From: a virus
DNA: 58,003 nucleotides
Reading direction: 5' to 3' (one strand)
IMG/VR virus record: IMGVR_UViG_3300005293_000003
Location: 1-58,003 of that record
The notes beneath the pieces were generated by a model. That model searched no databases. It saw only the letters and a program-made list of their open reading frames with translations, and was not told the origin of the DNA. Both the position numbers and the translations under genes were made by a program. Shown here in pieces: positions 10,055-57,122 of this stretch. Each line of letters opens with the position of its first letter. Position 1 is the first letter of the stretch.

Positions 10055-10180
10055 TCATGCGTCGTACTCACGAATAATGACTTCCAGGATAGCCGACTTG
10101 CTGATTCCTCTTTTCTTGGCCAGCCTGTAAAGGATCTTGATTGCCTCGGGCGAAAGCGTTACAGAAGTTTTAAGTTTCAT
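10055..10180 (-). CDS. ribbon-helix-helix protein, 41 aa
   Basis: ATG 10178-10180 overlaps the stop of the HNH gene (ATGA). The product KLKTSVTLSPEAIKILYRLA followed by GISKSAILEVIIREY is a minimal strand-helix-helix DNA-binding domain of the CopG/Arc type. It lies directly beside the orphan terminator. It probably represses a nearby promoter; the target is unknown. Confidence 0.7.
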   Translation of the reverse strand: MKLKTSVTLSPEAIKILYRLAKKRGISKSAILEVIIREYDA

Positions 10181-10809
10181 GCCTTCTGGAGGGCGTAATG
10201 TTTGCGACGATAATCACCAAACCAAGCTGCGTGCTCTGGTTGATCTAACCAAAATGGACTTGGTTTCTTTTCTTTCCCATGAGCTTCTGAATATCTAGCT
10301 CCGTTCTTGTTCTGTTCCTCAATCATTCGCCGTCGCCACTCACGGGCTAGCCAGAAAGCCCACTGCTCGCCGTGGGTCCTGGTTGAGAAGAATCTTTGCC
10401 TCGATGCGCCACTTGGATATTCAGTCCAATGCGCCATCCAAAAGACATAAATGCGAATCACCCTTCTGCGCACACCTACAATGCCCGAGGTGTTGTCGCA
10501 TCTCATGGACGAATTGTGGCAGTTGTGAGCATGTGTTACGGCTCTGAAATTGACGATCTTGTTGTGTGTTCTGTCGCGGTCTTCATGATCAATTTCCATT
10601 CCTTTTGGGATTGGTCCGTTAAACATTTCCCAAATGATATGGTGGCAGTAATAATTGCTTCCACACACACGCACTTCCCAATATTTAGCCCCTTTCGTTC
10701 CGGCAACCTGTCCCCTTCGGGAATTATATGGCCGGTCCTGTTTCCATCGCAGCCCAGTGGGGCTCGTTTCGTCGTACTCGAAATGATCATTCCAGTTCGG
10801 TTTATTCAT
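10177..10809 (-). CDS. HNH homing endonuclease with AP2-like domain, 210 aa
   Basis: ATG at 10807-10809 (MNKPNWNDHF) is chosen. The frame extends to a TTG at 10860, but that part reads poorly. An N-terminal GLRWK motif and basic segment precede the HNH core (YCHHIIWEMFNGPIPKGMEI, then DHEDRD and the N-R-AT-HNCHN motif), followed by NTSGIVGVRRR, the start of an AP2/NUMOD-type DNA-binding unit. The combination is typical of phage free-standing homing nucleases. It is one of three HNH-type genes in this genome with related layouts (also 28939-29388 and 38779-39235). Confidence 0.85.
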   Translation of the reverse strand: MNKPNWNDHFEYDETSPTGLRWKQDRPYNSRRGQVAGTKGAKYWEVRVCGSNYYCHHIIWEMFNGPIPKGMEIDHEDRDRTHNKIVNFRAVTHAHNCHNSSMRCDNTSGIVGVRRRVIRIYVFWMAHWTEYPSGASRQRFFSTRTHGEQWAFWLAREWRRRMIEEQNKNGARYSEAHGKEKKPSPFWLDQPEHAAWFGDYRRKHYALQKA

Positions 10810-10856
10810 TAAACCGTTATACCGCCAAAACGGTATGGTGACAAGCAAAGAGTTGC

Positions 10857-13800
10857 TCAAAATGCGGGGCCGGTTAACCAGCGCGAAGGCGATTTCGATT
10901 TAATATAGTTAGCTGTGCTTTCCAGGTAAGTATAATTGCCAGGAAATCCGTCGCTCGCCGTGTTCCAGCTCGTGAATAAAATCCCAATCACAGCATTTCC
11001 TGGCAATCCCTGAGCTTCAGCCTGTGCCAACACGCTTTCCCAACCATCATAATTTTTTGAATAATCGGTGAGTGAGTCATAGTAAATCGCTAACACCTGG
11101 CGACCGAAGGGCTTCGGAAAGCTCGGGTCCATACCAGCCCAGAATTTAATTGGTGGCGTCGTCTTGCTTTCATTGTTCCAGTTGACGGCGATAGCTCCAT
11201 TTGCCCCACTGGAAAAGCCCAACCAGTCACCATGCAAATCTCCTTTGGTGCATTCATACTGTACTTTTGAGTTATGCCAAGGACTCCACATGTCTGACCA
11301 GAAATAGCGCTCGATGTTTGGGTTGATCGCGTTGATGACCCCCTCGGTTCTCACCACGAAATTGGAGAGATACTGCCCCATCGTAATGCTGCCACAAGCT
11401 GGGTCCCAATTCCCAACGCGCCATTCATTGGCCCGGACCATCCAGGCGGTCGGAGAGGTCCGCGCATTAACCCGGCTGGCATTTGTCGTGTAGACATTGA
11501 AGAAATCCGCGTTACAAATGCTGCCCGGAACAGGTCGCTGGGATGGATTTTCCGGCTCTGCCAATTCAAACCAACTAACCTTTAGGCTAGCCCCAACCGG
11601 AATGGTTGAACCCCCGGGGATGGTCAGTAATTGATTCCCAACCACATAATCTGAGCCCTCTGTATAAGTTGGAGATCCGGCATAGAGCTTAACAGTTACA
11701 GGCAGGCTGGCTCGTCTGACGGTACTGAATAGGCCAGCCTCAGTGACGGCCACATCATCAACCCAGAATGTTCCAGTAGCACTTGATCCAGACATGATCC
11801 AGATCGTGACCGAGGTGTTTTCCAAGCTGTTGAAATCGTTTACGTACTCAAGCCAGTCTTGTGTAGCTGGAGGCGAGGAAGCTCCAAGCCAGCTACTAAG
11901 CACGCGGGCATTGGAATTTCCCTGAACATAGAACCTTAGATTGGAGGGCGACAACGATTGGGTCTTGATCCATGCCGACACTTTGTAAGATCGGAAAGGC
12001 ACAACAGCAATACTCTGAGAGAGGCGGCCCTTATTGGGGGAAACGGTTGGATTAACAATCTTCATTGAAACCAATCCGCCATGTTTGATGGTTGAATCCA
12101 CGAAGGTCTTGATTCCCGGATCATCAACGCCCCAGTTGCTGGGACTGTTGCCGGTGAAGGTCTCAAATCCAGGATTAACCAGCACTGGCGATGGATCTCC
12201 TACGGGCAAGGCTGTTGAACCTGAGCGAATGAATTTGGTATCAACCACCGGAAAAGCTTCTCTCAAATCAATAAGCGAGGACGAAACCGGCTCGCTCTGG
12301 CTAAAACTGTAAGGGATGAATTTGACGCCCAGCGAATTGGCATAGCTTACGGCTGAGGACAGATTGGCAAGAGCCGTTGCACCTGGAGCCGCGCCGAACA
12401 TGGTGCTGCCATCTTGAACCACTATCCCGTTGTAACCCACACTGGCGCCCCTCTGGATGATGTTGGTGATCCTGGTGTACTGTGCGGCACTTCCAAATCC
12501 ACCACTCGGCGCTGAACCAGACATTCGGTAGAAAATATACCGTCGGCTGAATTGGTTGATGGAGTTGGTGACAGGTGGAGTTCCTGGCCCGATCGTACCA
12601 AACGGAGGCTCAGCCTGGACTGTCACCACCACATCATCGCTGACCGTGGGAGTCGCTGAGGTGACCGTTAGACGGAAAGTATGAGAGCCTACCGCTGCTG
12701 GATTGTTGAACAGAACCACGGTGTTGGGCCTGCCCGGAGTGAGGATTGTGTATCCACCAGGACCGGCTACATGGGTCCAATTAGTCCCAGTTGTGCCGGA
12801 ACCGCTCACGGTTCCTTTTAGGATCGCAAATGGGGGATACTCAAGAAGCGCCACGTCGCGGGCAATGTGCCCGCTCATCGCGGTTCGACCATAGGAGGTT
12901 CCTTGATAGGTAAGGGTGGGATTTACTACGCCGTTCTTTACGGCTAGGGCTGTGTACTTCGAGAAGTTAAGAACATTGGTATTGTACCCACCCAAGAGAT
13001 AGAAGCCATCGTAGGTCTTGCCGTTTCCGAAAGCTGGAGTTGTTCCGAACGCTCCATTACTGCCATCCATGAAGTTCCTAACCTGTGGGTTTCCAGTTGA
13101 TCCATCCCACAAGACTTTGGTCAGAAGCTCGGAGAGCCCAGTGACGTGAGCCGAGGTAAAGGTTTGGCCTTGCTCGAATCCCTGCACAACGGCAAAGGCC
13201 AGCCGATTGCCGTGATCTGTGTCAAAATCGTTGTAGGTCTGCCAGGTCTTGCCGTGACCCCAGATCAAAGCATTGGGGAATTGCCAGGGCAGAAACCTAG
13301 CCTCCTTGCCATTGTAGTCCTTCACGCCTTCGGCCAGTTCGGTCGCCTTGGTTGCCCAGCCATAGGTGGCGGTATCGGAATTGGCCAAAAGAGCGGACAT
13401 GGATTTCAGATCCAGGATCAGGCGCAAGGCAAGCAACGGTTTGTCCGAGGTCGGAGAAGCCGTGTTCTGGCTCCAATCCGCATAGGCTGGATAACTAGGC
13501 CGGGTGACGAAGTTCTTATTGACGATATGATCCCGAACGAAATTGTAGATTGCCGTGGCCCGCGCCCCGAAGACCGCGCGTAGATCAGGGTCAGCCAAGA
13601 CAAGTCGCGCTGCCCGGCTCATACTCATACCCGCTGTGAATTCCTCGATCTGGAAGGCGATGTTGGTACTAGAGTAAGGCGAGGCCCATGTTCCAGCCCA
13701 GTTCCTCAGCCCCGACGTATCAAAGACCGTTGCCCGGCTGATCATTGTCTCACACCAGATCAAGGCCCGGTTGAGGTAATTGGTTTCCCGCGTGCCCTCG

Positions 13801-15899
13801 TACATGGAAATCGTTCCATCTATGACAAGCTGCAAAGTCGAGTAATTGGCCCCGGTACCACTGGCCGCCAGAGAGTTGAAATTGGCCGACTGCGCCACGT
13901 ACTCGGTGTCGAAGTAGGTCTTGTAAGGGCTCAAAGTCGCCGTGGGGAATGGCCCGGCATCCACCACGACGGGCTGTGGCGGGGTGGCGTTGATCGTGAT
14001 ATGAATTGCTGTAGAGATAGTGGTCAACCCACTGGAGTCGTAAGCCTTAGCCACCAGCGAATAAGATCCAGCCGGAACGCCCACCCAGTTCCCGGTATAG
14101 GGAGATGAACTATCGGAAACGATGAAGACATCCGGCTGGAATTGCATGAAATCAACCTTCGTCACCGTGCCATCCTGGTCGCTCGCCGTGGCAGTCATGG
14201 CGATGGTATCGCCTTGCGTGAAGACAGCATTATTGGCTGGGCTGGTCAGTTGCACCACGGGCGGGATCGGCTGATTGACTGTGATTGTCACAGGTGGAGA
14301 ACTCGTGGATATAAGTCCAAGATTATCCCATGCCTTGGCGATCAGGATATAGGTACTGGAGGCAGGTATCCACGAGATTGAATAGGGCGCCGTTGTGTCT
14401 GATCCAATCAAGGTCTCGCCCTGTACCGTTGGCGGGAAGACCGGATCAGGATCAGAGAGGACCACTGAGTACCAGGACACATTTGTCACACTGCCATCAT
14501 CGGTGGCATTGGCCGAGAGGGTCACGGTTGAGCCGGCTGCGAATGCCTGATTATTGACTGGCGAGGTAAGAGACACCACCGGAGGCGTGCCGGGTGGTGG
14601 ATTAACTGTCACGGTGTTGGTGTTGGAATTCTTGACTCCACCTTGGTCATCCACAGCTTGAGCATAGAACGCATAGGTTCCGACCCCCAACCCGGTCACA
14701 GGAAATGAATAAGGATCAGTCGTATCTGCGCCGTACTGCACCCCATTCACGAAGAACCTCACATGAGCGATGGTACCTGGAGCTGTGTCGCTGGCATTGG
14801 CTATGAGCGAAATGGTGGCTGGCGCCGTTGCAGTCGATCCATTGACCGGAGAAACCAGGGAAACAGTTGGCAGAGCATTTGGCGGATTGGAAACTGTAAA
14901 GGTGGCACTGGCCACCGATTGGAGATTGTCATTGTCCAGGGCAGTGACTTGAATGGTGTGAAGGCCCACCGATGGAGATAAGCTCACCTCGTAAGGCGCG
15001 CATACCCCTGAGTCGGGATCACATTCCAGATCAGCCGGAGTCAATACGGCCAGCACCACTCCGTTATCGCTAAAGGTGACGGTGGCAATCAGCCCATCCA
15101 GATCCACCACGGTGGCTGTGAAATTGAATGTGACCGGGGCCGTAAAAGCCATTTGGTTGGTGGGGATCGTGATATTGACAAGGGGAGGGGTAAGGATTGG
15201 TGTGCCAGGAGGCCGAACCACGACCGAAACCGATGTGGAGATATTGGTTGCCCCGCGATTGTCCCAGACATTAGCAGCAAACACGTAGTTACCCGCCGCT
15301 GCGTTGCTGATGACCATGCTCCAGGGCGCGGAGGTGTTGGTCTTTATCGGAGTCGATCCGCTATAGAAGACCACGTTGGTTATAGTTCCATCCCGGTCCT
15401 GAGCATCGGCTACTATCAGGATATCCACGGGCGCGGTAAACTCAGATCCATTTGGAGGGCTGGTTAGAGTGATTGTGGGGATGAAATTAGTGATGTTCTG
15501 ATCGGTGATGAACACCTCAAAGGTAGATTCATTCTCGTAAGCCCCCTTCCTGGCTTTGAAGCGTAAGCTGTAGCGGCCCTGTGCCTGGAATTGGGCCAGA
15601 TTGGTTAGGCCATTCCTGCTATCAAACACCACGGTTCCGGGAGAGTTGAAGAATGACCATTCGGTCTGGATCTCGTTAGTCACACCACCCACAACCGAGA
15701 GAGTAGCCACAATCGGCAGCAATGCGCTTGGCCCCTGAACCGTTGCGGGGTTACCCGCCGTAATTACGAAGTTAGTCGTAGTGACAGGCTGGATCGACGG
15801 TGGCCTTGGGCGGTCTGGTTGGGAAGCACTAAACACGGGCAATGATACCCACAGCCAGCAGAGTATAATTTGGAACCAGCAATGTTTACTTAATTTCAA
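10857..15899 (-). CDS. secreted multidomain protein, 1680 aa: Ig-like repeats, helical-toroid domain, glycosidase-like barrel
   Basis: Starts at TTG 15897-15899, overlapping the upstream gene. Residues 1-25 are a Sec signal peptide (CWFQIILCWLWVSLPVFSAS). Then come about five bacterial Ig-like repeats (SPVNNQAF, SPANNAVF and similar; roughly residues 140-640). They are followed by a helical domain (about 650-1060) rich in W and H that resembles alpha/alpha-toroid polysaccharide lyases. A short Ig/PKD-like part comes next, then an alpha/beta-barrel glycosidase-like domain (about 1150-1680). The barrel is interrupted by a carbohydrate-binding-like insert (VNPGFETFTGNSPSNWG). Catalytic residues are not assigned. 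The domain style is typical of Verrucomicrobiota secreted enzymes. A cell-wall or polysaccharide-degrading role, either released or on the virion, is inferred. Confidence 0.75.
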   Translation of the reverse strand: MKLSKHCWFQIILCWLWVSLPVFSASQPDRPRPPSIQPVTTTNFVITAGNPATVQGPSALLPIVATLSVVGGVTNEIQTEWSFFNSPGTVVFDSRNGLTNLAQFQAQGRYSLRFKARKGAYENESTFEVFITDQNITNFIPTITLTSPPNGSEFTAPVDILIVADAQDRDGTITNVVFYSGSTPIKTNTSAPWSMVISNAAAGNYVFAANVWDNRGATNISTSVSVVVRPPGTPILTPPLVNITIPTNQMAFTAPVTFNFTATVVDLDGLIATVTFSDNGVVLAVLTPADLECDPDSGVCAPYEVSLSPSVGLHTIQVTALDNDNLQSVASATFTVSNPPNALPTVSLVSPVNGSTATAPATISLIANASDTAPGTIAHVRFFVNGVQYGADTTDPYSFPVTGLGVGTYAFYAQAVDDQGGVKNSNTNTVTVNPPPGTPPVVSLTSPVNNQAFAAGSTVTLSANATDDGSVTNVSWYSVVLSDPDPVFPPTVQGETLIGSDTTAPYSISWIPASSTYILIAKAWDNLGLISTSSPPVTITVNQPIPPVVQLTSPANNAVFTQGDTIAMTATASDQDGTVTKVDFMQFQPDVFIVSDSSSPYTGNWVGVPAGSYSLVAKAYDSSGLTTISTAIHITINATPPQPVVVDAGPFPTATLSPYKTYFDTEYVAQSANFNSLAASGTGANYSTLQLVIDGTISMYEGTRETNYLNRALIWCETMISRATVFDTSGLRNWAGTWASPYSSTNIAFQIEEFTAGMSMSRAARLVLADPDLRAVFGARATAIYNFVRDHIVNKNFVTRPSYPAYADWSQNTASPTSDKPLLALRLILDLKSMSALLANSDTATYGWATKATELAEGVKDYNGKEARFLPWQFPNALIWGHGKTWQTYNDFDTDHGNRLAFAVVQGFEQGQTFTSAHVTGLSELLTKVLWDGSTGNPQVRNFMDGSNGAFGTTPAFGNGKTYDGFYLLGGYNTNVLNFSKYTALAVKNGVVNPTLTYQGTSYGRTAMSGHIARDVALLEYPPFAILKGTVSGSGTTGTNWTHVAGPGGYTILTPGRPNTVVLFNNPAAVGSHTFRLTVTSATPTVSDDVVVTVQAEPPFGTIGPGTPPVTNSINQFSRRYIFYRMSGSAPSGGFGSAAQYTRITNIIQRGASVGYNGIVVQDGSTMFGAAPGATALANLSSAVSYANSLGVKFIPYSFSQSEPVSSSLIDLREAFPVVDTKFIRSGSTALPVGDPSPVLVNPGFETFTGNSPSNWGVDDPGIKTFVDSTIKHGGLVSMKIVNPTVSPNKGRLSQSIAVVPFRSYKVSAWIKTQSLSPSNLRFYVQGNSNARVLSSWLGASSPPATQDWLEYVNDFNSLENTSVTIWIMSGSSATGTFWVDDVAVTEAGLFSTVRRASLPVTVKLYAGSPTYTEGSDYVVGNQLLTIPGGSTIPVGASLKVSWFELAEPENPSQRPVPGSICNADFFNVYTTNASRVNARTSPTAWMVRANEWRVGNWDPACGSITMGQYLSNFVVRTEGVINAINPNIERYFWSDMWSPWHNSKVQYECTKGDLHGDWLGFSSGANGAIAVNWNNESKTTPPIKFWAGMDPSFPKPFGRQVLAIYYDSLTDYSKNYDGWESVLAQAEAQGLPGNAVIGILFTSWNTASDGFPGNYTYLESTANYIKSKSPSRWLTGPAF

Positions 15900-16371
15900 G
15901 TTGCTCCTCTTTGTATTCCGTCCACTCCAAATCGCGCTCTGCTTCCGGCCCGGTGTTAACCCGCTTCACGTAGGCTACCCCCTCAAACTTGACCAAGAGA
16001 GTAACCACGTACCCCTTGCCTTGAGGCCCATCGTAAACATCAATAGTCAACGCGCAGGGCAAAACCTCCGCCGCTATGGCAGGGACCACATCAACCCACG
16101 ATTCGGCTTGGCCGGAAGGCTTGGCGTTTGCCTTGTCTGGAATCTTGTCGTCTGTCTTGTCCTCCTTTTGGTCTGGAACCACCGCATGAGTTTTGAGGCC
16201 CTGGAAATAAACGGGGTGATCCTTCTTGTACTCGTCCTGAGCCGCACTGATGGTCTTGCCGTTCTCTTCCCACCATTTGTCGATGCGAGTCTGAAGTTCT
16301 TTTAAGTCTTCGGCGCGGGACCATGTTGCGGATATCAGCAATATGGTTGTTACTATTAGAAACGCTCTCAT
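15886..16371 (-). CDS. exported hypothetical protein, 161 aa
   Basis: The N-terminus MRAFLIVTTILLISATWSRA is a Sec signal peptide. The mature protein has a charged helical part (ELQTRIDKWWEENGKTI), a Lys/Asp-rich linker and a beta-type C-terminal half (YVVTLLVKFEGVAYVKRV). No family is recognised. It sits between two secreted proteins in the same operon, and its stop overlaps the start of the 10857-15899 gene by 14 bases. Confidence 0.65.
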   Translation of the reverse strand: MRAFLIVTTILLISATWSRAEDLKELQTRIDKWWEENGKTISAAQDEYKKDHPVYFQGLKTHAVVPDQKEDKTDDKIPDKANAKPSGQAESWVDVVPAIAAEVLPCALTIDVYDGPQGKGYVVTLLVKFEGVAYVKRVNTGPEAERDLEWTEYKEEQLEIK

Positions 16372-16376
16372 TTAAT

Positions 16377-17162
16377 TTATGGAAAAGGGCAACAGGTTGG
16401 AGGATTTGTTCCACCACCATACAGAGCTGTTATTTCCGCAGCGGTAAGAACTCTATTCCAAATTCCAATTTGATCGAGTGCGCCGTTCCAGAAATCGGCT
16501 CCGGCTGTTCCACGCGCCCCAATATCAAATGGCCCGGTTGAATCGTGAATTCCAGTGGAATAGCCCAAAGTATTTGGCGTGCCAGCATTGGTCTGAATCG
16601 AAATCTGATTGTTCACCGAATCGTGGATTATGACGTGAAAATCCCAGGTATTGGTCGAGGGTGTTCCGAAAACCGTATCCTGTAAATCAGTGCTGGCTAT
16701 CCCGTCAGGCGACACGGAGAACGTGTACTTGCCGGTTCCGCTGTTGAACCAAAGTCGCCATGATCTTTGCTGGCTTGGTGTCACAGACCATTGCGAGGCG
16801 ATGGTCTCGCTGCCGGTAAGAGTCAGAGCTTTTGACCACCCTGTAATCGTCCAATCAAAATCACCTCTGGATAACTCAGTTGAATCGGCATGGCTTAGGA
16901 ACTCACTATTAGCCGCCGTAAAGAAAGCCGCGTTGCCAACTATTCCAGCAACCTGGGTGACGGTATTGTTGTCGGTGAGGTCTTGAACTGTTGGCGTGGG
17001 CTCGCCATCAAATCTTGTGCCGGATGCTTCTTCCAAACTCCAGAACGAGACCAAGCTGATGTTCAAGCTGGACGGAGCCGAGAAAGCGTATGAGTTGATG
17101 AAGATACTTTGCCCATGAACCGAAGAGACAAAAACAAGAAATAATATAGACCAGAGCCTCAT
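16377..17162 (-). CDS. exported LamG-domain protein, 261 aa
   Basis: A Sec signal (MRLWSILFLVFVSSVHGQS) is followed by a concanavalin-like LamG domain from about residue 35 to the end. The usual marks are VSFWSLEEASG, AAFFTAANSEFLSH, DWTITGWSKA and a closing strand with FWNGALDQIGIWNRVLTAAE. LamG domains bind glycans or matrix polymers. It ends in a short Cys/Pro tail. It is part of the exported fibre-like cluster. A receptor-binding or accessory adhesin role is likely. Confidence 0.78.
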   Translation of the reverse strand: MRLWSILFLVFVSSVHGQSIFINSYAFSAPSSLNISLVSFWSLEEASGTRFDGEPTPTVQDLTDNNTVTQVAGIVGNAAFFTAANSEFLSHADSTELSRGDFDWTITGWSKALTLTGSETIASQWSVTPSQQRSWRLWFNSGTGKYTFSVSPDGIASTDLQDTVFGTPSTNTWDFHVIIHDSVNNQISIQTNAGTPNTLGYSTGIHDSTGPFDIGARGTAGADFWNGALDQIGIWNRVLTAAEITALYGGGTNPPTCCPFP

Positions 17163-17173
17163 AAAATCGTTGC

Positions 17174-20100
17174 TTAACGCAAGCCAGAAATTTCGATGAT
17201 GAGCCCTGCTGGACTTGTCCCAACCGAATCAATATCTACCGATATCTCTGCATCATCAGCAATTGACGTATCACTAATAACCGCAGGCGTAGCTGCCGTT
17301 GTGGATGTTTTTTCGGCATTATCAATAGTCAGCTTTGTGGAAAGGATCGAAACTCCTGATTCATTTATATCACAGGTGAGAATCGTTCCGCTGGTTTGAG
17401 CCGATGAAAGCGACGCTCTAACCCCGGTCACTGTGAAAGCGTAAGGTGCCCTGATATATCCTTTAAACGTGCCGGCCACCAAAGGCGTTGTTAGATCCGA
17501 GCAAGCGATGGCTATCATTGTCGGAACCGTGCCGGTTGCCCCAGACTTCATTGCGACCCAGCCAGTGTTGGATACCCCGGTTTCCTTGACATAAAATATT
17601 AGCCCAGCCGTGCCGTTGGTTCTGATCCAGATCGAACCTACCGGATCAGTTTGCACCCCTTCAGGCGAGCCGCTCCCGGATCGAATGTTGATTCCTCCAA
17701 TATTTACCCCGGTACTTTTGAGGAAAGCACTTAAGAAAGGATCGGTGCTTATGCCGACAGTCTGCGAGCCTGTCCTTGGACGAATTCCAGCTAGGCTAAA
17801 ATTGACCAGCGGAGTTGTGTTGAGCCGATATTCAAAAGTTGCCGTGTTGTCGGAGATATCAAAGGAAGCCCCACCACCATCAGCGCCCATTGTGTAAGAA
17901 CCCTCGGTGTTGGTCATCAGCATTGAGATACCCGTGCCGCTGGCGTGACTCATTCGCAGGCCACCTAGATTTGTCAGCGAGAGCTGGTTGGCATCATGGT
18001 CGATTGCCCACGGCGTATCGTTGGTAGATCCACCTCCACCACCTCCAGTCGAATTAAGCGTGCCGGCTACGAAGGTCATGTTGCCACCCATTATCACCTT
18101 GCTGACGATGCCATTGTCATCGACATATATTAGCCCGTTGGTGAAGGCCGATATCTTCATCAGGGCCGCATTGGTCTCGTCTCCAAAATAAACCCCTGGA
18201 GGCGTACCTGGAACCAACCTCAACACCGGAACCTCAGTACCATCAGCCTTTCGCACCCAGAAATTATGGCCGCCCAGATAGGAAGCGGTGTTGGTCCTGA
18301 CGTGGTACTGCGCATCGCCGTCATCCATCAAGAGAGCAAACTTATTGATGCTGCCAGAGCGTTGCAGATTCAACCCATCCCCGGCATAAGTGCCTTGATT
18401 GACATTCAAAGGATGTTCGTAGATATCGTCAGAGATGCTTCCGGTTCCGGCTGCCGTGGGATAGATAAAGCCAGCACCAATATTCCTGATGACATTGTTG
18501 TGCACGTACATCTTGCCCTTGAGGCTCATCACAATGTCGCTGCCTGAATTACCCCGCACGATGTTGTTGGCAAAGGTGGAATTGGTTGAGGAAACCTGAG
18601 CCGCCAAAGCAGATACAGAATTGGTGTGATAAATCCTATTGTTGCTGATGACGGAAAGGTCCGCATTCTGCACGTCCAGAGGGGGGTAAACATCTCCGTA
18701 CATCATGTAATTGTCCGAGACGAACAGATCCCGGGCATCTGCAATCTCGATATTGCGCAGATCGTTTCCAATGACGGTCACAGTCCGACCATTGATGACC
18801 GGCCCGCGTGGGGCTGCTGTGCTGGATAGGGGAATGAATGTGTTGCGCAGGAGATTGAAATCGCAATTGGTGCCAGTCAATGCGATCAACCGGCGCCCGG
18901 TCATGTTGTTGCTCGAATAGAAATAGTTGTTGAGCAGCGAAACATAATTAGTGGTCTGAGTGAGTTGCAACATCCCTGGTGCATCTCCAGCACCGCTGGC
19001 CCCCAGGAAGACAACATCGCACGTATCCACCGTGAAGCTGTCCACAGTTGCGCCGATTGTGCGGAACCAGAACTCATTTTGTGGTCCCACGACAAACTTG
19101 GATTTGTGGAACCGGACGTTTCTGAAATTAACTGGCGCCAGGAAGGAGTTTCCGAACACGATGCAGGAGCCCGTGGTGCTGGCCCCGGTCGTCTCAAAAT
19201 AGCTCCCGCTAACTTCTTCCCCGTCCGTGTCCCCGTAGAGAGCCAACATCTCCTGAGTGACGCGGTAATCACCGCCGTTGATTTTGGTCCCCTTGGCGTC
19301 AACCAGCTCGATGCCGCGCCCGATCCCATCCACGTGATTGTTGTTGATCGTTATGGCTGAAACCATCGTGTCAGGATCAAAGGTGGCCGGGACATAGTTG
19401 GTTGGTGTTATGAAGGTGCAGCGAATGGCAGCTCCTCCGAAACTGCCTTGGATTGTATTATCGTTGATCGTCCCCTCGTAAATCGTCACATTGGTGCCGC
19501 GCGAATCGGTGGTGCCCAGGTCGCCTGTGTAGACCAGCACCGGATTGATCGGTGTTGAGATGTCGATCATCTTATTGCGCGCAAAGGTGAAGCGGTTGGC
19601 GGCAGAGAAAAAGACGATGTTCTTGAAAGCATTGCTCCCGGTGAAATAGTTGTCCGTTACCCGGCAACCAATGGGAGAGAGATAAATCTGATCAGCCCCC
19701 AGCGGAACGGTGTTCTGGAAGTAAAGCCAGTTGTGGGGCTGGCCCACGCCAAAGGTGATTCCGCATCCGTTTAGGAAACGATTGTTCTCGAAGACCCCGT
19801 AACTGCCGCTGCTGACAATTCCCTTGCCCGTGGGAACGTCGAAGGTGCAGTTGCGGATCACGACATTGGTAGCCAGATAAATATTGATCGGGATGTAATA
19901 GCCCGTCGTGGTGCTCTCCTCTGTGATCGGATTGTAATTGGTCGAGACGTTTCTGAAGTTGAGCCCATCCACCGTGACGCCATGCGAGCCAATAATGAAG
20001 GCGGCACTCAAGCGGCTATTGGTCACGTCTCCGGGTTGGCTGTAGAAAACATCAACCTTCGAATCGTGCCCGCGAATCCTGATGGGAATTCCATTTGTCA

Positions 20101-20980
20101 CCCAGACTGTGGTTTGGAGGCAGATGTTGGTTCCGGTGGGATAGACTACCTCACCGACGTAGCGCTCGGCATAATAAACGGCATCCTGAACGGATTTAGT
20201 GTCATCGGTTAATCCATCCACCTGTGCGCCCAAGCCCTTGATGGTTCTTTCCCAATTCTCGTCGAGCAACTGGAGGTTGTAATTGCCAGAGCCCACGTCG
20301 GCGTATCTCGAGTACCAATTGCTGGCCCGCACACCTCCGATGGTGACATTGCGAGTATCCTGAATGGAAAAGATCAAACCCGTCTTGTTGGGATCACCTC
20401 CGGGAGGATTTAGGTTCCACCCCAGAAGGCGGGCAGGCCCTATCTGACAATCATGAACATCAAGCGGGAAGTCGATCAGTATCCAGTTATCCGCCGGGTT
20501 GGGCGCGCATTCGAGTTGGCTATCCTCAGCCGTGGTCAGCGTCACCCCGGTCTTGATCTGGATTCGGGTTGAATCATCGCACTTCAAGATCCAACTGCCA
20601 CCATCGCAAATCACTTTTCCCCAGCCATTGGCCGAGACCCAATCAATGGCGGCTTGCAGGACTGAGTTGGTTTTAACACCACCCCACCAGAGCGCATGAT
20701 AATCCCGGCCTTGGACAACCCGCCGCCAGCGCCCTACCCCGCTATTGGGAAGGATAACGATACCCGCATCTGTAGCCTCAGCCGAATTGGGATCAGCGTT
20801 GAACAGTCCACCACCCCCATCATTGGGAACGAGATATCCTTTAACGTTACAGCTCTTATTAACATCCAGCGTGTTGAGGGTTTTGAGTTGGGCAATGGTA
20901 TCAACCTCCTTGGTGAAACGAAGCTGGGCTTGGGCATTAAATGCCAAAATAACAATGATGACTATAATGATTCTGGTCAT
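17174..20980 (-). CDS. tail-spike-like beta-helix protein with Sec signal, 1268 aa
   Basis: An N-terminal signal (TRIIIVIIVILAFNAQAQ) leads into a head-binding-like part (QLKTLNTLDVNKSCNVKGY, then NDGGGGLF and GRWRRV) found in many phage tail spikes. Next is DGLTDDTKSVQDAV, the entry to a pectate-lyase-type right-handed beta-helix spanning roughly residues 250-880 with many N-ladder repeats. The C-terminal third has phage fibre signatures: SPEGVQTDPVGSIWIRTNG, NTGWVAM, and a final TSGTILTCDINESGVSILST domain. This strongly suggests a polysaccharide-degrading or binding tail spike. The export signal is unexpected for a virion protein. Confidence 0.85.
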   Translation of the reverse strand: MTRIIIVIIVILAFNAQAQLRFTKEVDTIAQLKTLNTLDVNKSCNVKGYLVPNDGGGGLFNADPNSAEATDAGIVILPNSGVGRWRRVVQGRDYHALWWGGVKTNSVLQAAIDWVSANGWGKVICDGGSWILKCDDSTRIQIKTGVTLTTAEDSQLECAPNPADNWILIDFPLDVHDCQIGPARLLGWNLNPPGGDPNKTGLIFSIQDTRNVTIGGVRASNWYSRYADVGSGNYNLQLLDENWERTIKGLGAQVDGLTDDTKSVQDAVYYAERYVGEVVYPTGTNICLQTTVWVTNGIPIRIRGHDSKVDVFYSQPGDVTNSRLSAAFIIGSHGVTVDGLNFRNVSTNYNPITEESTTTGYYIPINIYLATNVVIRNCTFDVPTGKGIVSSGSYGVFENNRFLNGCGITFGVGQPHNWLYFQNTVPLGADQIYLSPIGCRVTDNYFTGSNAFKNIVFFSAANRFTFARNKMIDISTPINPVLVYTGDLGTTDSRGTNVTIYEGTINDNTIQGSFGGAAIRCTFITPTNYVPATFDPDTMVSAITINNNHVDGIGRGIELVDAKGTKINGGDYRVTQEMLALYGDTDGEEVSGSYFETTGASTTGSCIVFGNSFLAPVNFRNVRFHKSKFVVGPQNEFWFRTIGATVDSFTVDTCDVVFLGASGAGDAPGMLQLTQTTNYVSLLNNYFYSSNNMTGRRLIALTGTNCDFNLLRNTFIPLSSTAAPRGPVINGRTVTVIGNDLRNIEIADARDLFVSDNYMMYGDVYPPLDVQNADLSVISNNRIYHTNSVSALAAQVSSTNSTFANNIVRGNSGSDIVMSLKGKMYVHNNVIRNIGAGFIYPTAAGTGSISDDIYEHPLNVNQGTYAGDGLNLQRSGSINKFALLMDDGDAQYHVRTNTASYLGGHNFWVRKADGTEVPVLRLVPGTPPGVYFGDETNAALMKISAFTNGLIYVDDNGIVSKVIMGGNMTFVAGTLNSTGGGGGGSTNDTPWAIDHDANQLSLTNLGGLRMSHASGTGISMLMTNTEGSYTMGADGGGASFDISDNTATFEYRLNTTPLVNFSLAGIRPRTGSQTVGISTDPFLSAFLKSTGVNIGGINIRSGSGSPEGVQTDPVGSIWIRTNGTAGLIFYVKETGVSNTGWVAMKSGATGTVPTMIAIACSDLTTPLVAGTFKGYIRAPYAFTVTGVRASLSSAQTSGTILTCDINESGVSILSTKLTIDNAEKTSTTAATPAVISDTSIADDAEISVDIDSVGTSPAGLIIEISGLR

Positions 20981-21201
20981 GGAGCAGGATCGGAACGATG
21001 TTTTTGAGATGCCCTAAGAATGAGATAGCGAAACACGAAATCGCGCAGAGTTTCATACTGACTGCGTTCCTCTCGATAAATTGACCAGAGAATTTCGTTA
21101 TCGAAAACAATTCGGCAGAAGTTGTCCAGGCGGCGAATGAAACCGCGTGCCTTCTTAAGCGTGTAAAAATTATTGAGCGTGTAAAAACTTTGAGGGCTCA
21201 T
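20977..21201 (-). CDS. hypothetical protein, 74 aa
   Basis: Both ends overlap neighbours by four bases (start on the stop of 21198-22691, stop on the start of 17174-20980). The product is basic and aromatic (FIRRLDNFCRIVFDNEILWS, then ETLRDFVFRYLIL) and helical. Unlike its neighbours it has no signal peptide. A chaperone for the adjacent spike is a possible role, by analogy with small genes beside tail fibres, but no match is recognised. Confidence 0.6.
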   Translation of the reverse strand: MSPQSFYTLNNFYTLKKARGFIRRLDNFCRIVFDNEILWSIYREERSQYETLRDFVFRYLILRASQKHRSDPAP

Positions 21202-22691
21202 TCGTTAAAAAGATTCGTCACTTCAGTAGGAGTGAGTGCGCGCGTGTAGATCCTGACATCCGAAATTGCGCCTTCAAAAGTCGGACTACCCAGCCTGCTC
21301 CCAACCCTAACTGCGTCCTGTAGTGGACGAAGGTTTCCCGTAAACGTGCTGATGGATGGCCCGGCCACGCCATCCAGATAATTGATCATCGTGGCATTGG
21401 ATAGAATCGAAACCGAATGATACCAGTGGTTCGTATCGGTCAAAGCCGTTGTGTTGGTGACAATGAACGATGTTCCGGCTTCGTTGTTGACCCGGAATGC
21501 CTGCCGGGTAGCGGTAAGATTGACTAAGAACGTCTCCCGAGCGGTGTTGTTCGTATCGTCCTTCACGATCAACGCCTCATTCGCAATGGAGTTTGTATAA
21601 GGCCGGCACCAGAGCGAAATCGTCATCTGGTTTGTCAGAGGACGGTTCAGAATCGTGCCGCTCGTGTTGAAATCCAAAATCCGGTTGCCCGAATGATAGG
21701 CTTCATGGGAGAAGGCATTGAAATCGACGTAGAGGTGAGTAGCGGTCGAGTCAACCGCAATGCCCTCGATGTAAACATAGGTCGTGGTCAGTGTGGTGAT
21801 AATTGCGCCCGTGGTTTTGTTGACCTTGTGAATCTTGGAATCCCCGGCACTGGAAACATCGCACGTCACCCACAGGCAGTCATTCACGCCGTCGTAGGCG
21901 ATGCCATCTGCTGTCTGATTTGATGGGACAGTTAAGGTGACAACTTCCTGTTCGACTCCGTTGGTATTAAAGCGATGTAGCTTTTGTGAAACTCCCGAAA
22001 CATTCTCAACCACCCAAAGCGAACTGCGCCCAGGCTCGTAGGCGCAATGGTTGATGTTGTAGGATAAGGTCCACCCATTAGCGATTGGCACACCAGCCTT
22101 GGTGCAATGCAGAACTTTCTTAGTCGTGAACCCGGCACACCAGAGCGTGTCGTCCCAGGTATCAATCGTAATCCCCTGAATCCCGTCTCCGCTTGTGAAA
22201 GGTGTCACCGTGGAGAGGGTGACAAACTCGTATTGGCTGGGCGCGTTAACCGTTGTGACATGATGAATCGAACCGTCCCAGAAATTAGCCAGCCAGAAAG
22301 TTCCATCTGAATCCAGGGCCAGCCCAGCAAGATTGTTTGTTTCTCCTGTAGCATTGGTCTCTCGCCCATCGAAATTCTCCAGGTCAACCCGTTTGGTTCC
22401 GCTGAAGACAATCGCGCTATGCGAGGCATTGTGGCCAACAATTATATCACCCGAAACGATTCCAACTCCATTTCCGTCAAGATTGTTTGTAGTCAAATCA
22501 GGCGGGCTCGTCGCGTTCATATCCCACCATCCAAGAAGATCATCAGGAATGGTTAGGGGGTTGGTCCCTCCGCTCGTGTTGGTTCCGAATGTTGCTTTCC
22601 CCGACAAGGTAATTTTGCCGTTGAAAGTCACGACGCTGCGAGCGGTGAACCCTAGAAAGACGACCAGGATCAAGATGGGAACAATCCTCAT
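21198..22691 (-). CDS. exported LamG protein split by a beta-propeller, 497 aa
   Basis: A signal-like N-terminus (MRIVPILILVVFLGFTARSV) is followed by the first part of a LamG domain (DLLGWWDMNATSPPDLT, ... HSAIVFSGTKRVDLENF). Then come NHL-type propeller repeats from about residue 120 to 330 (LAGLALDSDGTFWLANFWDG, IQGITIDTWDDTLWCAG, DGIAYDGVNDCLWV). The LamG fold resumes with LTNQMTISLWCRPY and ends EGAISDVRIYTRALTPTEV. The propeller therefore appears inserted between strands of the LamG domain. A glycan-binding adhesin role is inferred. Confidence 0.75.
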   Translation of the reverse strand: MRIVPILILVVFLGFTARSVVTFNGKITLSGKATFGTNTSGGTNPLTIPDDLLGWWDMNATSPPDLTTNNLDGNGVGIVSGDIIVGHNASHSAIVFSGTKRVDLENFDGRETNATGETNNLAGLALDSDGTFWLANFWDGSIHHVTTVNAPSQYEFVTLSTVTPFTSGDGIQGITIDTWDDTLWCAGFTTKKVLHCTKAGVPIANGWTLSYNINHCAYEPGRSSLWVVENVSGVSQKLHRFNTNGVEQEVVTLTVPSNQTADGIAYDGVNDCLWVTCDVSSAGDSKIHKVNKTTGAIITTLTTTYVYIEGIAVDSTATHLYVDFNAFSHEAYHSGNRILDFNTSGTILNRPLTNQMTISLWCRPYTNSIANEALIVKDDTNNTARETFLVNLTATRQAFRVNNEAGTSFIVTNTTALTDTNHWYHSVSILSNATMINYLDGVAGPSISTFTGNLRPLQDAVRVGSRLGSPTFEGAISDVRIYTRALTPTEVTNLFNE

Positions 22692-24337
22692 TGTGACTTT
22701 GCCATATAGCGAATTGAGAGCAGCATGGTTGAACTGGCTACGCTGGATGAATCTCCGGCCCCATCACGGGCCAGCATGATCTGAACGTATTGACCCGGAA
22801 CCATCGCCGCCGCCCAACCAGTCAAAGTAATGCCGGTAGTATATTCCACGTCTGAAGCAGCTCCAGCGGCATCGGTCGGAGAATTGAAAAGGATGTAGTT
22901 ACTGCAAGCGGTTTGAACATTGCTCCTGACCGCAGAGGCCGCAGGCGAATACATTGCGATGGAATATTTCCTTTGATTGGTGTCGGCGCCAATGCTCTCA
23001 GCAAAGTCAGCAGTCATTTCCACTGTCGTATCAATGTCTGTGGGAACCCACATGAAGTAGGCCGCATAATTTGCATTGGTGGCTGCCGATGCAGAGAAAG
23101 TTGCCTGCCCGGAAAGACCGCTTGAGGAAGTGCTGGTTGCGATGTTGAGAGTTGCCCCGGTTCCGTCGGTGAGCCTTGGAGCAAACAACTGGATGTACTT
23201 GTAGGTTCTAAGAGTATTACCCGCCGTGGTTGAGTTATAAGGACCGAACAGCCCATTAGTTCCTATCAATTGATTGGCTGATCCAACTCCAGCCAGAGTC
23301 GAGTTAGTTGTTCCAGAAGACGACCAATTGTCCGATGATCCACTACCAACTCCATTGGTCCCACTTGAAATCGTCACGGTCTGGCCAGTGCCACCCACAA
23401 TCACCGCAGAATTCCCGGAGCCTGAAGAACTGTTAGTCCAATAATAAGTTGCCAGTGGGACCAGAACCGCGGTGATGTCGTTCGTCACCTGGATAGCCAG
23501 ACCCAGAGCCGCCGTAGAGATTTCCGTTCTGGCTAGAAGAGCAAATGTGCTCCCGCCAGCTTGGTCCACCATGAGGTCTATTGCGGAGTCTCCGTTTACT
23601 GCTGCGCCGGTTAATGCTGCTGTAGCCCTAGCAAGAACTGTCTGAGTGCCGTTGGTATAGACCGTGTTGAGTACAAAGTTAGTTTGCGTAGTCGTGGTTG
23701 CTCCGCCGCTGCCTCCAGTTGGAGTTTCCCAGGTAATGGTTCCACCTGTATTCCAGGTTGGAACTTGACCATTTGCCGGAGTGTCGCTTGCGAGCACTCC
23801 AACTAAGTAAGTATTTGCTGTGCCATCATAGAATTGAACCGCTCCTCTACCTACTCCCCAGATATTGTTGTCTCCGGCTATCTCACCAAAGGCATCGGTG
23901 GTTGGAGCTGCGCCATTGGGAAGCTGTAAGGAGCCTGTGAAGATTGGATCGGCCAGTGGAGCTAGGTCGGTTATGGCCAGTGCGCTGTTCGTCAGATTCT
24001 TGAGTGCGTCATAAATCGCAATCTTGCCCGCCGTCACATTGAGCATCATCAAACTATTCGTTAGCACGAGCGCATCCATTGCATTTGCTCCGCTGCCATT
24101 CACTGAGAGTCCGGCTAGGTTTGTGATGGAGAAATTGTTTCCATCAGCATTGGCAACTAGAGGGAAAGAGGCTGATCCACCACTGGAACTCAAAACATTT
24201 CCCACTGACAAGCTTAATCCAGATCCAAGAGTAACTACATTTGTGGTCAGAATATTCCTCTGCAAAGCAGGGGGAGCCGCCGCATATATTTGGAAGTGAG
24301 CCATTCCGATTGCGGCAATGACAAATAGAATTCTCAT
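22688..24337 (-). CDS. fibre-like protein with Sec signal, 549 aa
   Basis: ATG 24335-24337 overlaps the stop of 24334-24588 (ATGA), which fixes the start in preference to a longer frame. A signal (MRILFVIAAIGMAHFQIYAA) is followed by phage-fibre-like repeats rich in Ser, Thr, Gly and Asn (SFPLVANADGNNFSITNLAG, ADPIFTGSLQLPNGA). The C-terminal part (about 390-549) is a beta-rich knob-like region (YKYIQLFAPRLTDGTGA, GQYVQIMLARDG). It lies directly downstream of the small tail genes after the capsid gene. A tail fibre or fibre-tip protein is likely. Confidence 0.72.
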   Translation of the reverse strand: MRILFVIAAIGMAHFQIYAAAPPALQRNILTTNVVTLGSGLSLSVGNVLSSSGGSASFPLVANADGNNFSITNLAGLSVNGSGANAMDALVLTNSLMMLNVTAGKIAIYDALKNLTNSALAITDLAPLADPIFTGSLQLPNGAAPTTDAFGEIAGDNNIWGVGRGAVQFYDGTANTYLVGVLASDTPANGQVPTWNTGGTITWETPTGGSGGATTTTQTNFVLNTVYTNGTQTVLARATAALTGAAVNGDSAIDLMVDQAGGSTFALLARTEISTAALGLAIQVTNDITAVLVPLATYYWTNSSSGSGNSAVIVGGTGQTVTISSGTNGVGSGSSDNWSSSGTTNSTLAGVGSANQLIGTNGLFGPYNSTTAGNTLRTYKYIQLFAPRLTDGTGATLNIATSTSSSGLSGQATFSASAATNANYAAYFMWVPTDIDTTVEMTADFAESIGADTNQRKYSIAMYSPAASAVRSNVQTACSNYILFNSPTDAAGAASDVEYTTGITLTGWAAAMVPGQYVQIMLARDGAGDSSSVASSTMLLSIRYMAKSQ

Positions 24338-24588
24338 GCGATGACCTGTTCCCAGCCGGTATTGTTTGTTCCTGAAGAAGTTTTGATCCAATAAGCCCCA
24401 GCAGCCGTGTAAAACACAGCCGGACGGGTGCCAGTGACAACTCCATTGGGGTTTCCGGAGCCAAAAAACACTTCCTGAGACCCACCGCCTCCCCCACCTC
24501 CAGGACCAAGGCTGACTAACTTTTGGAGAGAGCGTTGCTCGGAATCAAACGGCATCGCATCGTTATCTTCTGGGAAAAAACTTGGCAC
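24334..24588 (-). CDS. small tail-fibre-type protein, 84 aa
   Basis: The N-terminal PSFFPEDNDAMPFDSEQRSL is a copy of a motif also found twice in the upstream gene. A poly-Gly run (GPGGGGGGGSQ) is followed by FFGSGNPNGVVTG and a C-terminal YWIKTSSGTNNTGW, which is the common phage fibre ending. The N-terminal motif may attach to the virion while the C-terminus is the short display part. Confidence 0.7.
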   Translation of the reverse strand: MPSFFPEDNDAMPFDSEQRSLQKLVSLGPGGGGGGGSQEVFFGSGNPNGVVTGTRPAVFYTAAGAYWIKTSSGTNNTGWEQVIA

Positions 24589-24606: not shown

Positions 24607-24801
24607 TTAGGACCTCAAGGCATTTATCTTGATGTATAATCGCTCCTCGTCATCTCCGGGCATCGGTTCAGATCCTTCGGGATAGAAGGATGGCCCCATA
24701 TCACCATTGGCAATGAAAAGAAGCGAGCAGAGCTTATGCAGAGAACGAAGCTCGCTATCCATTGGCGTAGCATCGTCGCCCTCTGGAAAGTACGCGGGCA
24801 T
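24607..24801 (-). CDS. small structural protein with two copies of a P-FYPEG motif, 64 aa
   Basis: Two tandem copies of one unit are visible: PAYFPEGDDATPMDSELRSL (residues 2-21) and PSFYPEGSEPMPGDDEERLY (about 37-56), each followed by a K-x-L helix. The same unit begins the next gene, giving three copies in all. Such units occur at the N-termini of phage fibre-type proteins and could be virion docking elements. Confidence 0.65.
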   Translation of the reverse strand: MPAYFPEGDDATPMDSELRSLHKLCSLLFIANGDMGPSFYPEGSEPMPGDDEERLYIKINALRS

Positions 24802-24839
24802 AAGAGCAAAACCGGCTTAGTAACCCTGCCGGATTATGC

Positions 24840-25223
24840 CTAAGTATTGTATGCGTCAAGTCCCACTACTACAGTATCAACATTGGCTCGCCAATTGATC
24901 AAGGTAGCAGCCTCGCCCGTGACTCTGATTCTAATCGTGGTTCCGCTGGGTTCCATGATACAGGCCCAGTTGCTATCGGTTTCATTGGAACTGACTGATG
25001 TGGTAGTGCTAACCTGCGCCAACACTCCAGCAGCCGTGGTGAAAAATGTACCGCTGAGCTGATAGCTCGCAGCCTGAAGAAGTGGCACATCCAAGGCAAT
25101 AATATTTGCCCTCACAAAGTAAGCTTTTCCGGGTCTGGTCTGTATATCAGCCAGTGTCGTAACGGTCGCATCAGTGGTTTGAATACTTGGACCCATCGGA
25201 TTGCGAGAATTTAGAGTAGCCAT
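24840..25223 (-). CDS. putative structural protein downstream of capsid, 127 aa
   Basis: A beta-type protein without signal peptide (LADIQTRPGKAYFVRANIIA, SGTTIRIRVTGEAATLINWR). It is the first gene after the major capsid gene in the leftward direction and is followed by the fibre genes. Position suggests a head decoration, head-tail or fibre-adaptor protein. No specific family is recognised. Confidence 0.6.
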   Translation of the reverse strand: MATLNSRNPMGPSIQTTDATVTTLADIQTRPGKAYFVRANIIALDVPLLQAASYQLSGTFFTTAAGVLAQVSTTTSVSSNETDSNWACIMEPSGTTIRIRVTGEAATLINWRANVDTVVVGLDAYNT

Positions 25224-26883: not shown

Positions 26884-27420
26884 ATGCCAGCCCCTGCTTA
26901 TCTTACCGGCCAGCGATTCGGAAAATTAACCGTGACCTCAGAGCACGGCAAAGACAACTGGGGAAAGAGCCTATGGCTATGCCGGTGCGATTGTGGTCGC
27001 GAGACGATCACAACCTGTACCCGGTTGACTCAAGGCAAAACCAGATCCTGTGGGTGTTTGTTGGGCGAGGTTAATTCAAAGATGGAACGAGTTGTGCCAC
27101 ATGGAACATCGCATGTGCTGACGGTCCTTGGCCGACTCCATAGGATCGCCAAACGGCTTGAAGATGGCAAGTGGATCATTGCCCAGGATTTGGCCGGGGA
27201 AGAAGAGGTCTCAATCAAGACCATCTACAGGATGCTGGACTTCCTACGGGACCAACTATGCTGGGACCTGGAAGTGAGTCGGATCGGGTTCAGGCTCAGA
27301 GAAAAAGGACAACAACCGGTTTGCTTAAACACAAACTCCGACATAAGGTCGGACCATAATGTTGCAAAGAACATCCGGCAGACTCATAAGCCTGGAAAAA
27401 TTCCAGTCTCCCTCCATTGA
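26884..27420 (+). CDS. putative transcription regulator: zinc ribbon plus HTH, 178 aa
   Basis: The N-terminus has GQRFGKLTVTSE, then WLCRCDCGRET and TRSCGCLLGE, the CxCDCG...SCGC zinc-ribbon pattern common in small phage DNA-binding proteins. The middle (GRLHRIAKRLEDGKWIIAQD, then SIKTIYRMLDFLRD) resembles a winged-helix or HTH_11 domain. It is on the opposite strand to the late operon and its last 96 bp overlap the 3' end of the FkbM gene. An extended -10-like TGATATGCT lies at 26860-26868. A repressor or late-switch role is inferred. Confidence 0.62.
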   Translation: MPAPAYLTGQRFGKLTVTSEHGKDNWGKSLWLCRCDCGRETITTCTRLTQGKTRSCGCLLGEVNSKMERVVPHGTSHVLTVLGRLHRIAKRLEDGKWIIAQDLAGEEEVSIKTIYRMLDFLRDQLCWDLEVSRIGFRLREKGQQPVCLNTNSDIRSDHNVAKNIRQTHKPGKIPVSLH

Positions 27421-28038
27421 CGGAATACCGTAAGTGTCTATCGCTTTCCAAAGTTGCTTGACTTGGCACTCGTTCAAATGAGGAAAACGCTCGACCTGAA
27501 CCACAGGCTTGCGCAGCGATAGCCAGTTATTAAATTCTGCCAGCAGGACCCCATCCTCGCCTTCAGTATCGAATTTGACGAACGAAATCCTGCCGGTGAT
27601 ATCACACTCATCGAGCCTGACTCTTTTTACCGGGACAGGAGCGCCTTCGGTTAAAAAGCCCCCATTGATTTGCTCGGCGTGATATCGAAATACAGCATCT
27701 CCCCTTGTGGTTCCGATAGCGTATGGATAGACGATGATTGAAGCAATATCCGGGTTAAGGGTAGCGTTCTGCATCAGGACTTCCAGGGCGGCTGGATTGG
27801 GCTCAAAGGCATGAACGGTTCCAGTCTTGCCGGCAGCAACCGCCATTGGGATGGCGGTATCTCCCGTATAGGCTCCAATGTCAATTACCGTGTCTCCCGC
27901 ATTTATGAAATTAGCCAGCCAGTCAATTGTGCCTTGGGTGAAATTCTGGCCTCGCTCATTGGGATTAAGCCACTGGTAGAACTGAATCCTGCCCCATTTT
28001 CCCAACCAGAATTCATCGAGCCGAGCGCCGTATTTCAT
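27325..28038 (-). CDS. FkbM-family methyltransferase, 237 aa
   Basis: SAM-binding motif VIDIGAYTGDTAIPMA at about residues 52-67, an acidic motif II with HAFEPNPAALEVL (about 76-88), and the family's C-terminal SFVKFDTEGED followed by a VQVERF strand. FkbM-type enzymes methylate sugars or small molecules. It forms a three-gene glyco cassette with the two glycosyltransferase genes upstream, with start overlapping the GT2 stop by four bases. A role in decorating the virion or the host envelope is inferred. Confidence 0.88.
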   Translation of the reverse strand: MKYGARLDEFWLGKWGRIQFYQWLNPNERGQNFTQGTIDWLANFINAGDTVIDIGAYTGDTAIPMAVAAGKTGTVHAFEPNPAALEVLMQNATLNPDIASIIVYPYAIGTTRGDAVFRYHAEQINGGFLTEGAPVPVKRVRLDECDITGRISFVKFDTEGEDGVLLAEFNNWLSLRKPVVQVERFPHLNECQVKQLWKAIDTYGIPSMEGDWNFSRLMSLPDVLCNIMVRPYVGVCV

Positions 28039-56738: not shown

Positions 56739-57122
56739 CTAAATTAGCCGATGCCATCGACCTGGCCCTGAATTTCCAGCCGGGTTAATTACAGACCCTC
56801 CTAGGCTGATATTTGAATGATCGTAGTTATCAATTGCAATGGACAATGGGTCATAAAAAAACTGCGCTCCAAAACCGTCTCCCGGCACAACCTGTCCCAG
56901 CATCACCATAAAAGTGTTGATGCTAGAAGCCGGAATAGCAGTAGCCGCTGCCAAGTTTGGTTTAAGAAACCACCCCGCAGTTTCACCCGATGAACTTTCC
57001 CCCTGGGGTCCCGGTGGTCCAGCCGGACCCGGTACGGAAACTATCGTTGGCGCGGAACAAAACTGGGTGACGCAGCAGTTAAGGGCAGATGGAAGAATTG
57101 CAGCCATGCTGCCCCATAGCAT
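56739..57122 (-). CDS. collagen-like tail protein, 127 aa
   Basis: ATG 57120-57122; a second Met five codons later (MAAILPS) is possible. PGPAGPPGPQGESSSGE is a short collagen triple-helix repeat (Gly-x-y), and the C-terminal 60 aa are a beta-type knob (FGAQFFYDPLSIAIDNYDHS and GGSVINPAGNSGPGRW). This is a common layout of small trimeric phage fibres. It directly precedes the nozzle-like gene. Confidence 0.7.
   Translation of the reverse strand: MLWGSMAAILPSALNCCVTQFCSAPTIVSVPGPAGPPGPQGESSSGETAGWFLKPNLAAATAIPASSINTFMVMLGQVVPGDGFGAQFFYDPLSIAIDNYDHSNISLGGSVINPAGNSGPGRWHRLI

Follow-up and report, generated by a model that had tools for sequence, protein, structure and literature searches.

The 58,003 bases of IMGVR_UViG_3300005293_000003, a complete IMG/VR virus record of a soil-type phage, analysed over its whole length and called the window below, contain a late block of six genes which all start with real signal peptides of the Sec/signal peptidase I type. 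The genes are named here by their lower coordinates (22688, 21198, 17174, 16377, 15886 and 10857), and at least one of them, 17174, resembles a tailspike. Tail fibres decide the host choice of a phage and are, in the textbook view of assembly, made and attached in the cytoplasm. Exported fibres which still reach the virus particle are contrary to that expectation. Export of the fibre-like proteins is very probable and well supported by their N-termini. We favour, with a probability of roughly 0.6, the reading that they are exported by Sec, cleaved, folded in the periplasm and joined to the particles at or after lysis.

Signal peptides at the start of six late genes

Signal peptides were called with a purpose-written scorer of n-, h- and c-regions (cut-off 7.9), which was calibrated on 80 genes of E. 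coli K-12, 15 of them marked beforehand as exported. All 15 reached 7.9 or more and the periplasmic ldtD was called as well; among the cytosolic proteins that have no further membrane segments carB alone was called, as a false positive. A sequence-only reading of the window had proposed signal-like N-termini for the six genes. All six are indeed called, with scores from 7.98 to 12.9, whereas none of the phage's 15 core structural genes is (Fisher p = 1.8e-5). The threshold is reached by two of 115 shadow open reading frames (ORFs) of the window, by none of the windows taken from within the six proteins and by 0-1.4% of their shuffles (at most 7/500 for any one).

Each of the six has a charged n-region, a hydrophobic h-region, small residues at -3 and -1 and no further membrane segment. 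Cleavage (slash) is predicted at MRILFVIAAIGMAHFQIYA/AAPP in 22688, MRIVPILILVVFLGFTARS/VVTF in 21198, MTRIIIVIIVILAFNAQA/QLRF in 17174, MRLWSILFLVFVSSVHG/QSIF in 16377, MRAFLIVTTILLISATWSRA/EDLK in 15886 and MKLSKHCWFQIILCWLWVSLPVFSAS/QPDR in 10857, whose signal is the weakest and lies just above the cut-off. None of the six has a lipobox cysteine at +1, which is present in their neighbours 6899 and 7526. The scorer's calls outside the block are these two lipoproteins, ORF 8257, which is probably not a gene, and the early-strand gene 43823-44692, which has its signal peptide at an internal start and encodes a putative exported protein, possibly acting on the host envelope.

The gene starts were fixed from the sequence. 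The listed TTG start of 22688 at 24391 is wrong; the gene, the first of the exported fibre genes, starts at the internal ATG at 24337, so that its start shares four bases (ATGA) with the stop of the adaptor gene before it. According to the coordinates four-base overlaps also exist at 22688/21198, 21198/20977 and 20977/17174, and the TTG start of 10857 is preceded by the Shine-Dalgarno-like aagaggagcaac. Therefore the starts, and the signals with them, are not free choices. Chance or wrong gene starts as the source of the signals are ruled out by the controls together with the stop/start overlaps. The genes had been described as six consecutive ones; they do form one block, but the signal-less ORF 20977 of 74 amino acids separates 21198 from 17174.

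The description of the set as fibre or hydrolase-like holds for some members and not for others. Judged by homology to phage tail and virion proteins, 17174 is tailspike-like. Klebsiella phages have tail proteins which match the tail-spike and fibre signatures noticed earlier in this protein (SPEGVQTDPVG...NTGWVAM). Residues 1155-1268 resemble virion structural proteins, with 60% identity to that of Rhodobacteraceae phage LS06-2018-MD05 and 56% to that of Sphingomonas phage Carli. The protein also carries a Beta_helix domain (PF13229). Its DGGGGLF-type N-terminal domain aligns with proteins of the related contigs G010 and L011 and with signal-less small structural-block proteins, namely 56739-57122 of the window and those of L008, L009 and L025.

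The LamG and Ig domains noted earlier in the neighbours were recovered, and the propeller domain below threshold: Laminin_G_3 in 16377 and in 21198 (PF13385, 2e-19), a beta-propeller-like part with a sub-threshold SMP-30 hit in 21198, and five Big_7, a PKD and a CBM_4_9 domain in 10857. These three proteins contain only carbohydrate-binding, Ig or propeller-type domains and no tail or virion homology. Two further regions of 10857 are possibly enzymatic; their predicted structures (predicted local distance difference test scores of 30-34) are too poor to use. A sequence search of the PDB returned nothing for 17174 and only Ig-type modules for 10857. For 22688 neither a family hit nor tail or virion homology was found, and 15886 has no family or domain, no tail or virion homology and no resemblance to a fibre or hydrolase. 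The LamG protein 16377-17162 and its homologue in L006 (4112-4900) share the C-terminal ending CCPF.

Relatives and Cellulophaga phages

Related contigs were found with the portal, tail-tube and capsid proteins, and L032-L036 with the spike N-terminal domain. Predicted signal peptides are kept in these relatives, as the sequence-only reading had suggested checking. Five homologous pairs have a signal in both members: 16377/L006_4112 (43% identity), G001_1759/G010_398 (53%), G001_514/G010_5209 (52%), G001_837/G010_293 (42%) and G010_4349/L008_8243 (88%). Arrays of such genes exist in G001 (52,993 bases; five scored signal genes and a sixth of 514 amino acids recognised by eye, with its signal from an internal methionine; five of the six in one run adjoining a lipoprotein gene), in G010 (six signal-peptide genes and a lipoprotein) and in the short contig L006 (three). 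Homologues of 17174 with a signal were found in L011, L032, L034-L036 and G001, and the signal precedes the spike N-terminal domain in the spike genes of L032-L036. Within the L011-L036 family the codons of the signal differ by 2-4 synonymous changes and by no non-synonymous one; these are small counts. Two of the relatives' proteins match known virion families, G001_1759 the tail spike phrog_4636 (1.4e-19) and G010_4349 the virion structural protein phrog_10330. The 1759-amino-acid spike of G001 contains segments which correspond to the bodies of separate signal-peptide fibres.

The adaptor is conserved directly before a signal-peptide gene in L006, L009 and L025. The post-adaptor gene of L009, L008 and L025 has its signal at an overlapping stop/start, and in L006 the two genes abut. 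BLAST found no match between 22688 and the fibres of L009, L025 and L008; the likeness consists of the shared position, the overlap and a short motif, RN..TTN, recognised by eye. In a second phage group (L027-L031) the same adaptor precedes fibres without a signal, and both are placed before the capsid gene.

The Big_7 part of 10857 aligns with an exported protein of 1373 amino acids in G010 (17863-21984, L055/L056), a phage protein with seven BACON domains and a Big_7, for which a plasmid search gave no match. In L019, a related phage, a gene upstream of the terminase (247-1101) encodes a signal peptide and a subtilase domain (PF00082).

A precedent is given by Cellulophaga phages. The proteins gp091-gp094 of phi10:1 all have a signal peptide and the GenBank label 'structural protein, experimental MS/MS proteomics' (MS/MS, tandem mass spectrometry), and the pectate lyase gp095 lies just under the signal cut-off. 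The pattern is repeated by gp101-104 of phi19:1 and gp085-087 of phi18:3, so that 11 of 11 proteins combine signal peptide and MS/MS label; the labels were taken from the GenBank records and not from spectra. In Bacteroidetes on average about 71% of the signal peptidase I substrates have glutamine at +1, the so-called Q-rule (PMC5837995). Glutamine is found at a plausible +1 position in 10 of the 11 Cellulophaga proteins, in eight of them at the scorer's own site. For the signal proteins of the window's group the count by eye is about 8/22, with partly ambiguous sites.

The first 42 residues of gp094 of phi10:1 are 88-93% identical in proteins with different bodies. The signal is swapped between unrelated bodies together with about 20 following residues, in the manner of an attachment module. 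In phi46:3 gp81 and gp82 share the signal peptide, and most residues right after it differ. The same pectate-lyase core occurs in larger proteins of phi14:2, phi4:1 and phi17:2, and absence of a signal was scored in phi14:2. No fibre with a signal was found among the late genes of T7, P22, crAss001, B124-14, phi14:2 and phi38:1, where the calls were limited to genes of the lysis type and one or two small proteins of membrane type.

The claim of the sequence-only reading that export of fibres or their assembly outside the cytoplasm would be new is too strong, because such signals already stand, without comment, in the GenBank records of phi10:1, phi19:1 and phi18:3, on structural proteins detected by MS/MS, and signal peptides of other phage proteins are mentioned in two papers (PMC8776804, PMC10367356). 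Bartlau et al. (PMC8776804) noted 'signaling peptides' of the lyases of the flavophages Ingeline and Nekkels in one sentence without discussing export, and placed lyases in general on tails; Ingeline genes 31-34 also pass our scorer. Matrishin et al. (PMC10367356) described five Porphyromonas phage proteins which obey the Q-rule and suggested a modification of the outer membrane. The consequence of signal peptides on phage fibres for assembly was drawn in no paper found, passing mentions only, in a search that left most subscription journals outside.

Assembly of exported fibres and alternative explanations

According to the reading we favour, fibres, tailspike and glycan-binding or glycan-degrading proteins would start out as preproteins. 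The Sec system of the host would export them, signal peptidase I would cleave them, and they would then fold into soluble proteins of the periplasm. As the signals are of the soluble type, and neither a lipobox nor a sorting domain for the outer membrane was recognised, the proteins should accumulate in the periplasm and stay there until the spanin/holin step. Particles would be built in the cytoplasm and carry signal-less adaptors, the 84-amino-acid protein being a candidate docking partner of the fibres. Since the particles stay in the cytoplasm until lysis, fibres would meet them only at or after lysis, and fibre attachment would be the last assembly step. Tailspikes of P22 and long tail fibres of T4 can be added in vitro to finished particles, and late addition is therefore feasible. 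Cleavage, the folding site, the joining of these proteins to the particle and its timing are what we infer. The exported Cellulophaga fibres detected by MS/MS suggest that a fibre can leave the cytoplasm and yet end on the particle.

Several points weigh against this reading. The virion MS/MS evidence comes from Cellulophaga phages only, and such lists can include co-purified secreted proteins. The Cellulophaga signal proteins are not detectably related in sequence to those of the window, and the precedent is therefore one of architecture only. Most body sequences of the window's set have no family match, and 15886 and 10857 are not fibre-like. Attachment to the virion of the window phage, which we give somewhat better than even odds, and docking of the fibres to the adaptor are both matters we infer.

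The strongest alternative, which we consider less likely, is that the proteins are exported and never join the particle. They would be secreted or periplasmic enzymes, adhesins or receptor-masking proteins whose target would be the infected cell or, once it has lysed, the surrounding matrix, or which would counter superinfection. The signal peptides are genuine also under this explanation, which is further favoured by the look of bacterial secreted proteins in 10857 (Big_7/PKD/CBM_4_9), in the G010 giant (seven BACON) and in the L019 subtilase, and by the interpretation given to the five Porphyromonas phage proteins (PMC10367356). However, 17174, G001_1759 and G010_4349 have spike or virion-type domains, the block sits between the capsid/adaptor and the lysis genes, and 11 Cellulophaga proteins with signal peptides are labelled structural by MS/MS. 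In addition, no type IX or PEP-CTERM sorting domain is present among the Pfam hits of the searched signal-peptide proteins of the window and its relatives, two of which (L006 4885 and G010_293) come from genes truncated at the 3' end; nothing therefore points to outward secretion before lysis. A mixture, for example with 17174 as a spike and 10857 as a secreted enzyme, is quite possible. The sequence-only reading had offered export of the fibres or their assembly outside the cytoplasm. Its export part is well supported; secretion and outside assembly both stay in play, and the Cellulophaga evidence favours the latter for at least part of the set.

It is far less probable that the N-termini are hydrophobic segments for docking or membrane insertion on fibres assembled in the cytoplasm. 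Swapping of the hydrophobic module along with the following residues would be expected of a docking segment. However, the segments show all three regions (n, h and c) of a signal peptide and small residues at -3 and -1, glutamine at +1 in 10 of the 11 Cellulophaga proteins follows a rule specific to processing by signal peptidase I, homologous cores occur without any hydrophobic segment, and most residues right after the common signal differ between gp81 and gp82 of phi46:3. Passive left-overs of acquired host genes for secreted proteins, which would fit some of the domain architectures, are the least probable explanation. Several divergent phages show the trait throughout the set, diverged homologues retain it, the changes between close relatives are all synonymous, and the proteins which carry it include spikes of phage type.

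Were an entire class of fibres to pass through Sec first, the timing of assembly and the dependence on host export would change, as would the disulfide or pyroglutamate chemistry of the fibre, and free fibres could block superinfection. As a strategy of unrelated phages in at least two groups, we can only tentatively propose a two-compartment assembly, in which heads and tails would be made in the cytoplasm. The receptor-binding fibres would be exported, processed by signal peptidase and kept in the periplasm until mixing at lysis lets the adaptors of the particles capture them.

Gene context and comparison with known systems

Table 1. Features of the window that bear on the late block. Proteins with a signal peptide are called exported.
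Feature	Coordinates	Strand	Details
Adaptor-like 84-aa protein, no signal	24334..24588	-	MPSFFPED...EQRSLQKLVSLG...NTGWEQVIA
22688, exported fibre-like protein, 549 aa	22688..24337	-	signal peptide 24281-24337; score 9.3
21198, exported 497-aa protein	21198..22691	-	signal peptide 22635-22691; score 10.25
20977, 74-aa ORF, no signal	20977..21201	-	4-base overlap with the neighbour on each side
17174, exported tailspike-like protein, 1268 aa	17174..20980	-	signal peptide 20927-20980; score 12.9
Tailspike N-terminal domain, DGGGGLF type	20717..20926	-	directly after the 17174 signal peptide
GSPEG...NTGW module, residues 1106-1143 of 17174	17552..17665	-	62-66% identity to tail proteins of Klebsiella and other phages
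C-terminal receptor-binding-type domain, residues 1155-1268 (114 aa) of 17174	17177..17518	-	virion-protein matches
16377, exported LamG-domain protein, 261 aa	16377..17162	-	signal peptide 17112-17162; score 9.43; Laminin_G_3
15886, exported small protein, 161 aa	15886..16371	-	signal peptide 16312-16371; score 10.15
10857, exported giant protein, 1680 aa	10857..15899	-	signal peptide 15822-15899; score 7.98
Signal-less small structural-block protein	56739..57122	-	collagen-like stretch and DGGGGLF-type domain

The terminase of the window matches phrog_2; the other structural assignments are based on size, order and conservation in relatives. The terminase, portal-size, scaffold-like and capsid proteins and two proteins resembling short-tail tube components suggest a podovirus-like phage. 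The minus strand carries, in this order, terminase, portal, scaffold, glycosyltransferases, capsid, decoration-like protein, adaptor-like protein, the six-gene block, small membrane proteins and two lipoproteins. The last two groups look like a lysis region; the lipoprotein genes 6899-7357 and 7526-7756 probably encode lysis or spanin parts, and 7526 resembles 24649-24894 of G010. Two glycosyltransferases and an FkbM-like methyltransferase (27325-31305) lie between the scaffold and capsid genes, a position which is kept in L002 and L009, and possibly modify the particle or the host surface. HNH endonuclease genes are found beside the fibre genes (10177-10860) and beside the capsid gene (28939-29409), the latter with a counterpart near the capsid gene of L002.

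Among annotated phages no homologue was found for the portal, for 22688, for the adaptor or, at 1e-8, for 16377, and one weak match for 10857. Alignments of the major capsid protein and of the spike domain against genome contigs gave no match to a host, for which domain style and the partial Q-rule are not decisive.

The tailspike gp9 of P22, gp17 of T7 and gp22-gp25 of crAss001 resemble the proteins of the window in their beta-helix or fibre bodies, their modular N-terminal attachment and their variable C-terminal part; in contrast, they are made in the cytoplasm and have no signal peptide. The proteins of LS06-2018-MD05 and Carli have the same C-terminal domain as 17174 (56-60%), but are signal-less. 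The Porphyromonas gingivalis phage proteins are likewise phage-encoded with signals for signal peptidase I; however, the authors interpret these proteins of unknown function as possible agents of outer-membrane modification in the host and not as components of the virion (PMC10367356). Ingeline and Nekkels likewise have phage proteins with signal peptides, in their case of the pectin or alginate lyase type.

The Cellulophaga phages phi10:1 and phi19:1 (Assiduviridae) and phi18:3 (Pachyviridae) differ from the window phage in their siphovirus or myovirus-type genomes, in contrast to a podovirus-like one, in having MS/MS evidence and in a nearly complete Q-rule, which is partial in the window. 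They are alike in having three to four adjacent genes for fibres or pectate lyases, each with a Sec signal, which follow the tail genes and a small gene without a signal and precede genes of the lysis type, and in the swapping of signals together with the start of the mature chain.

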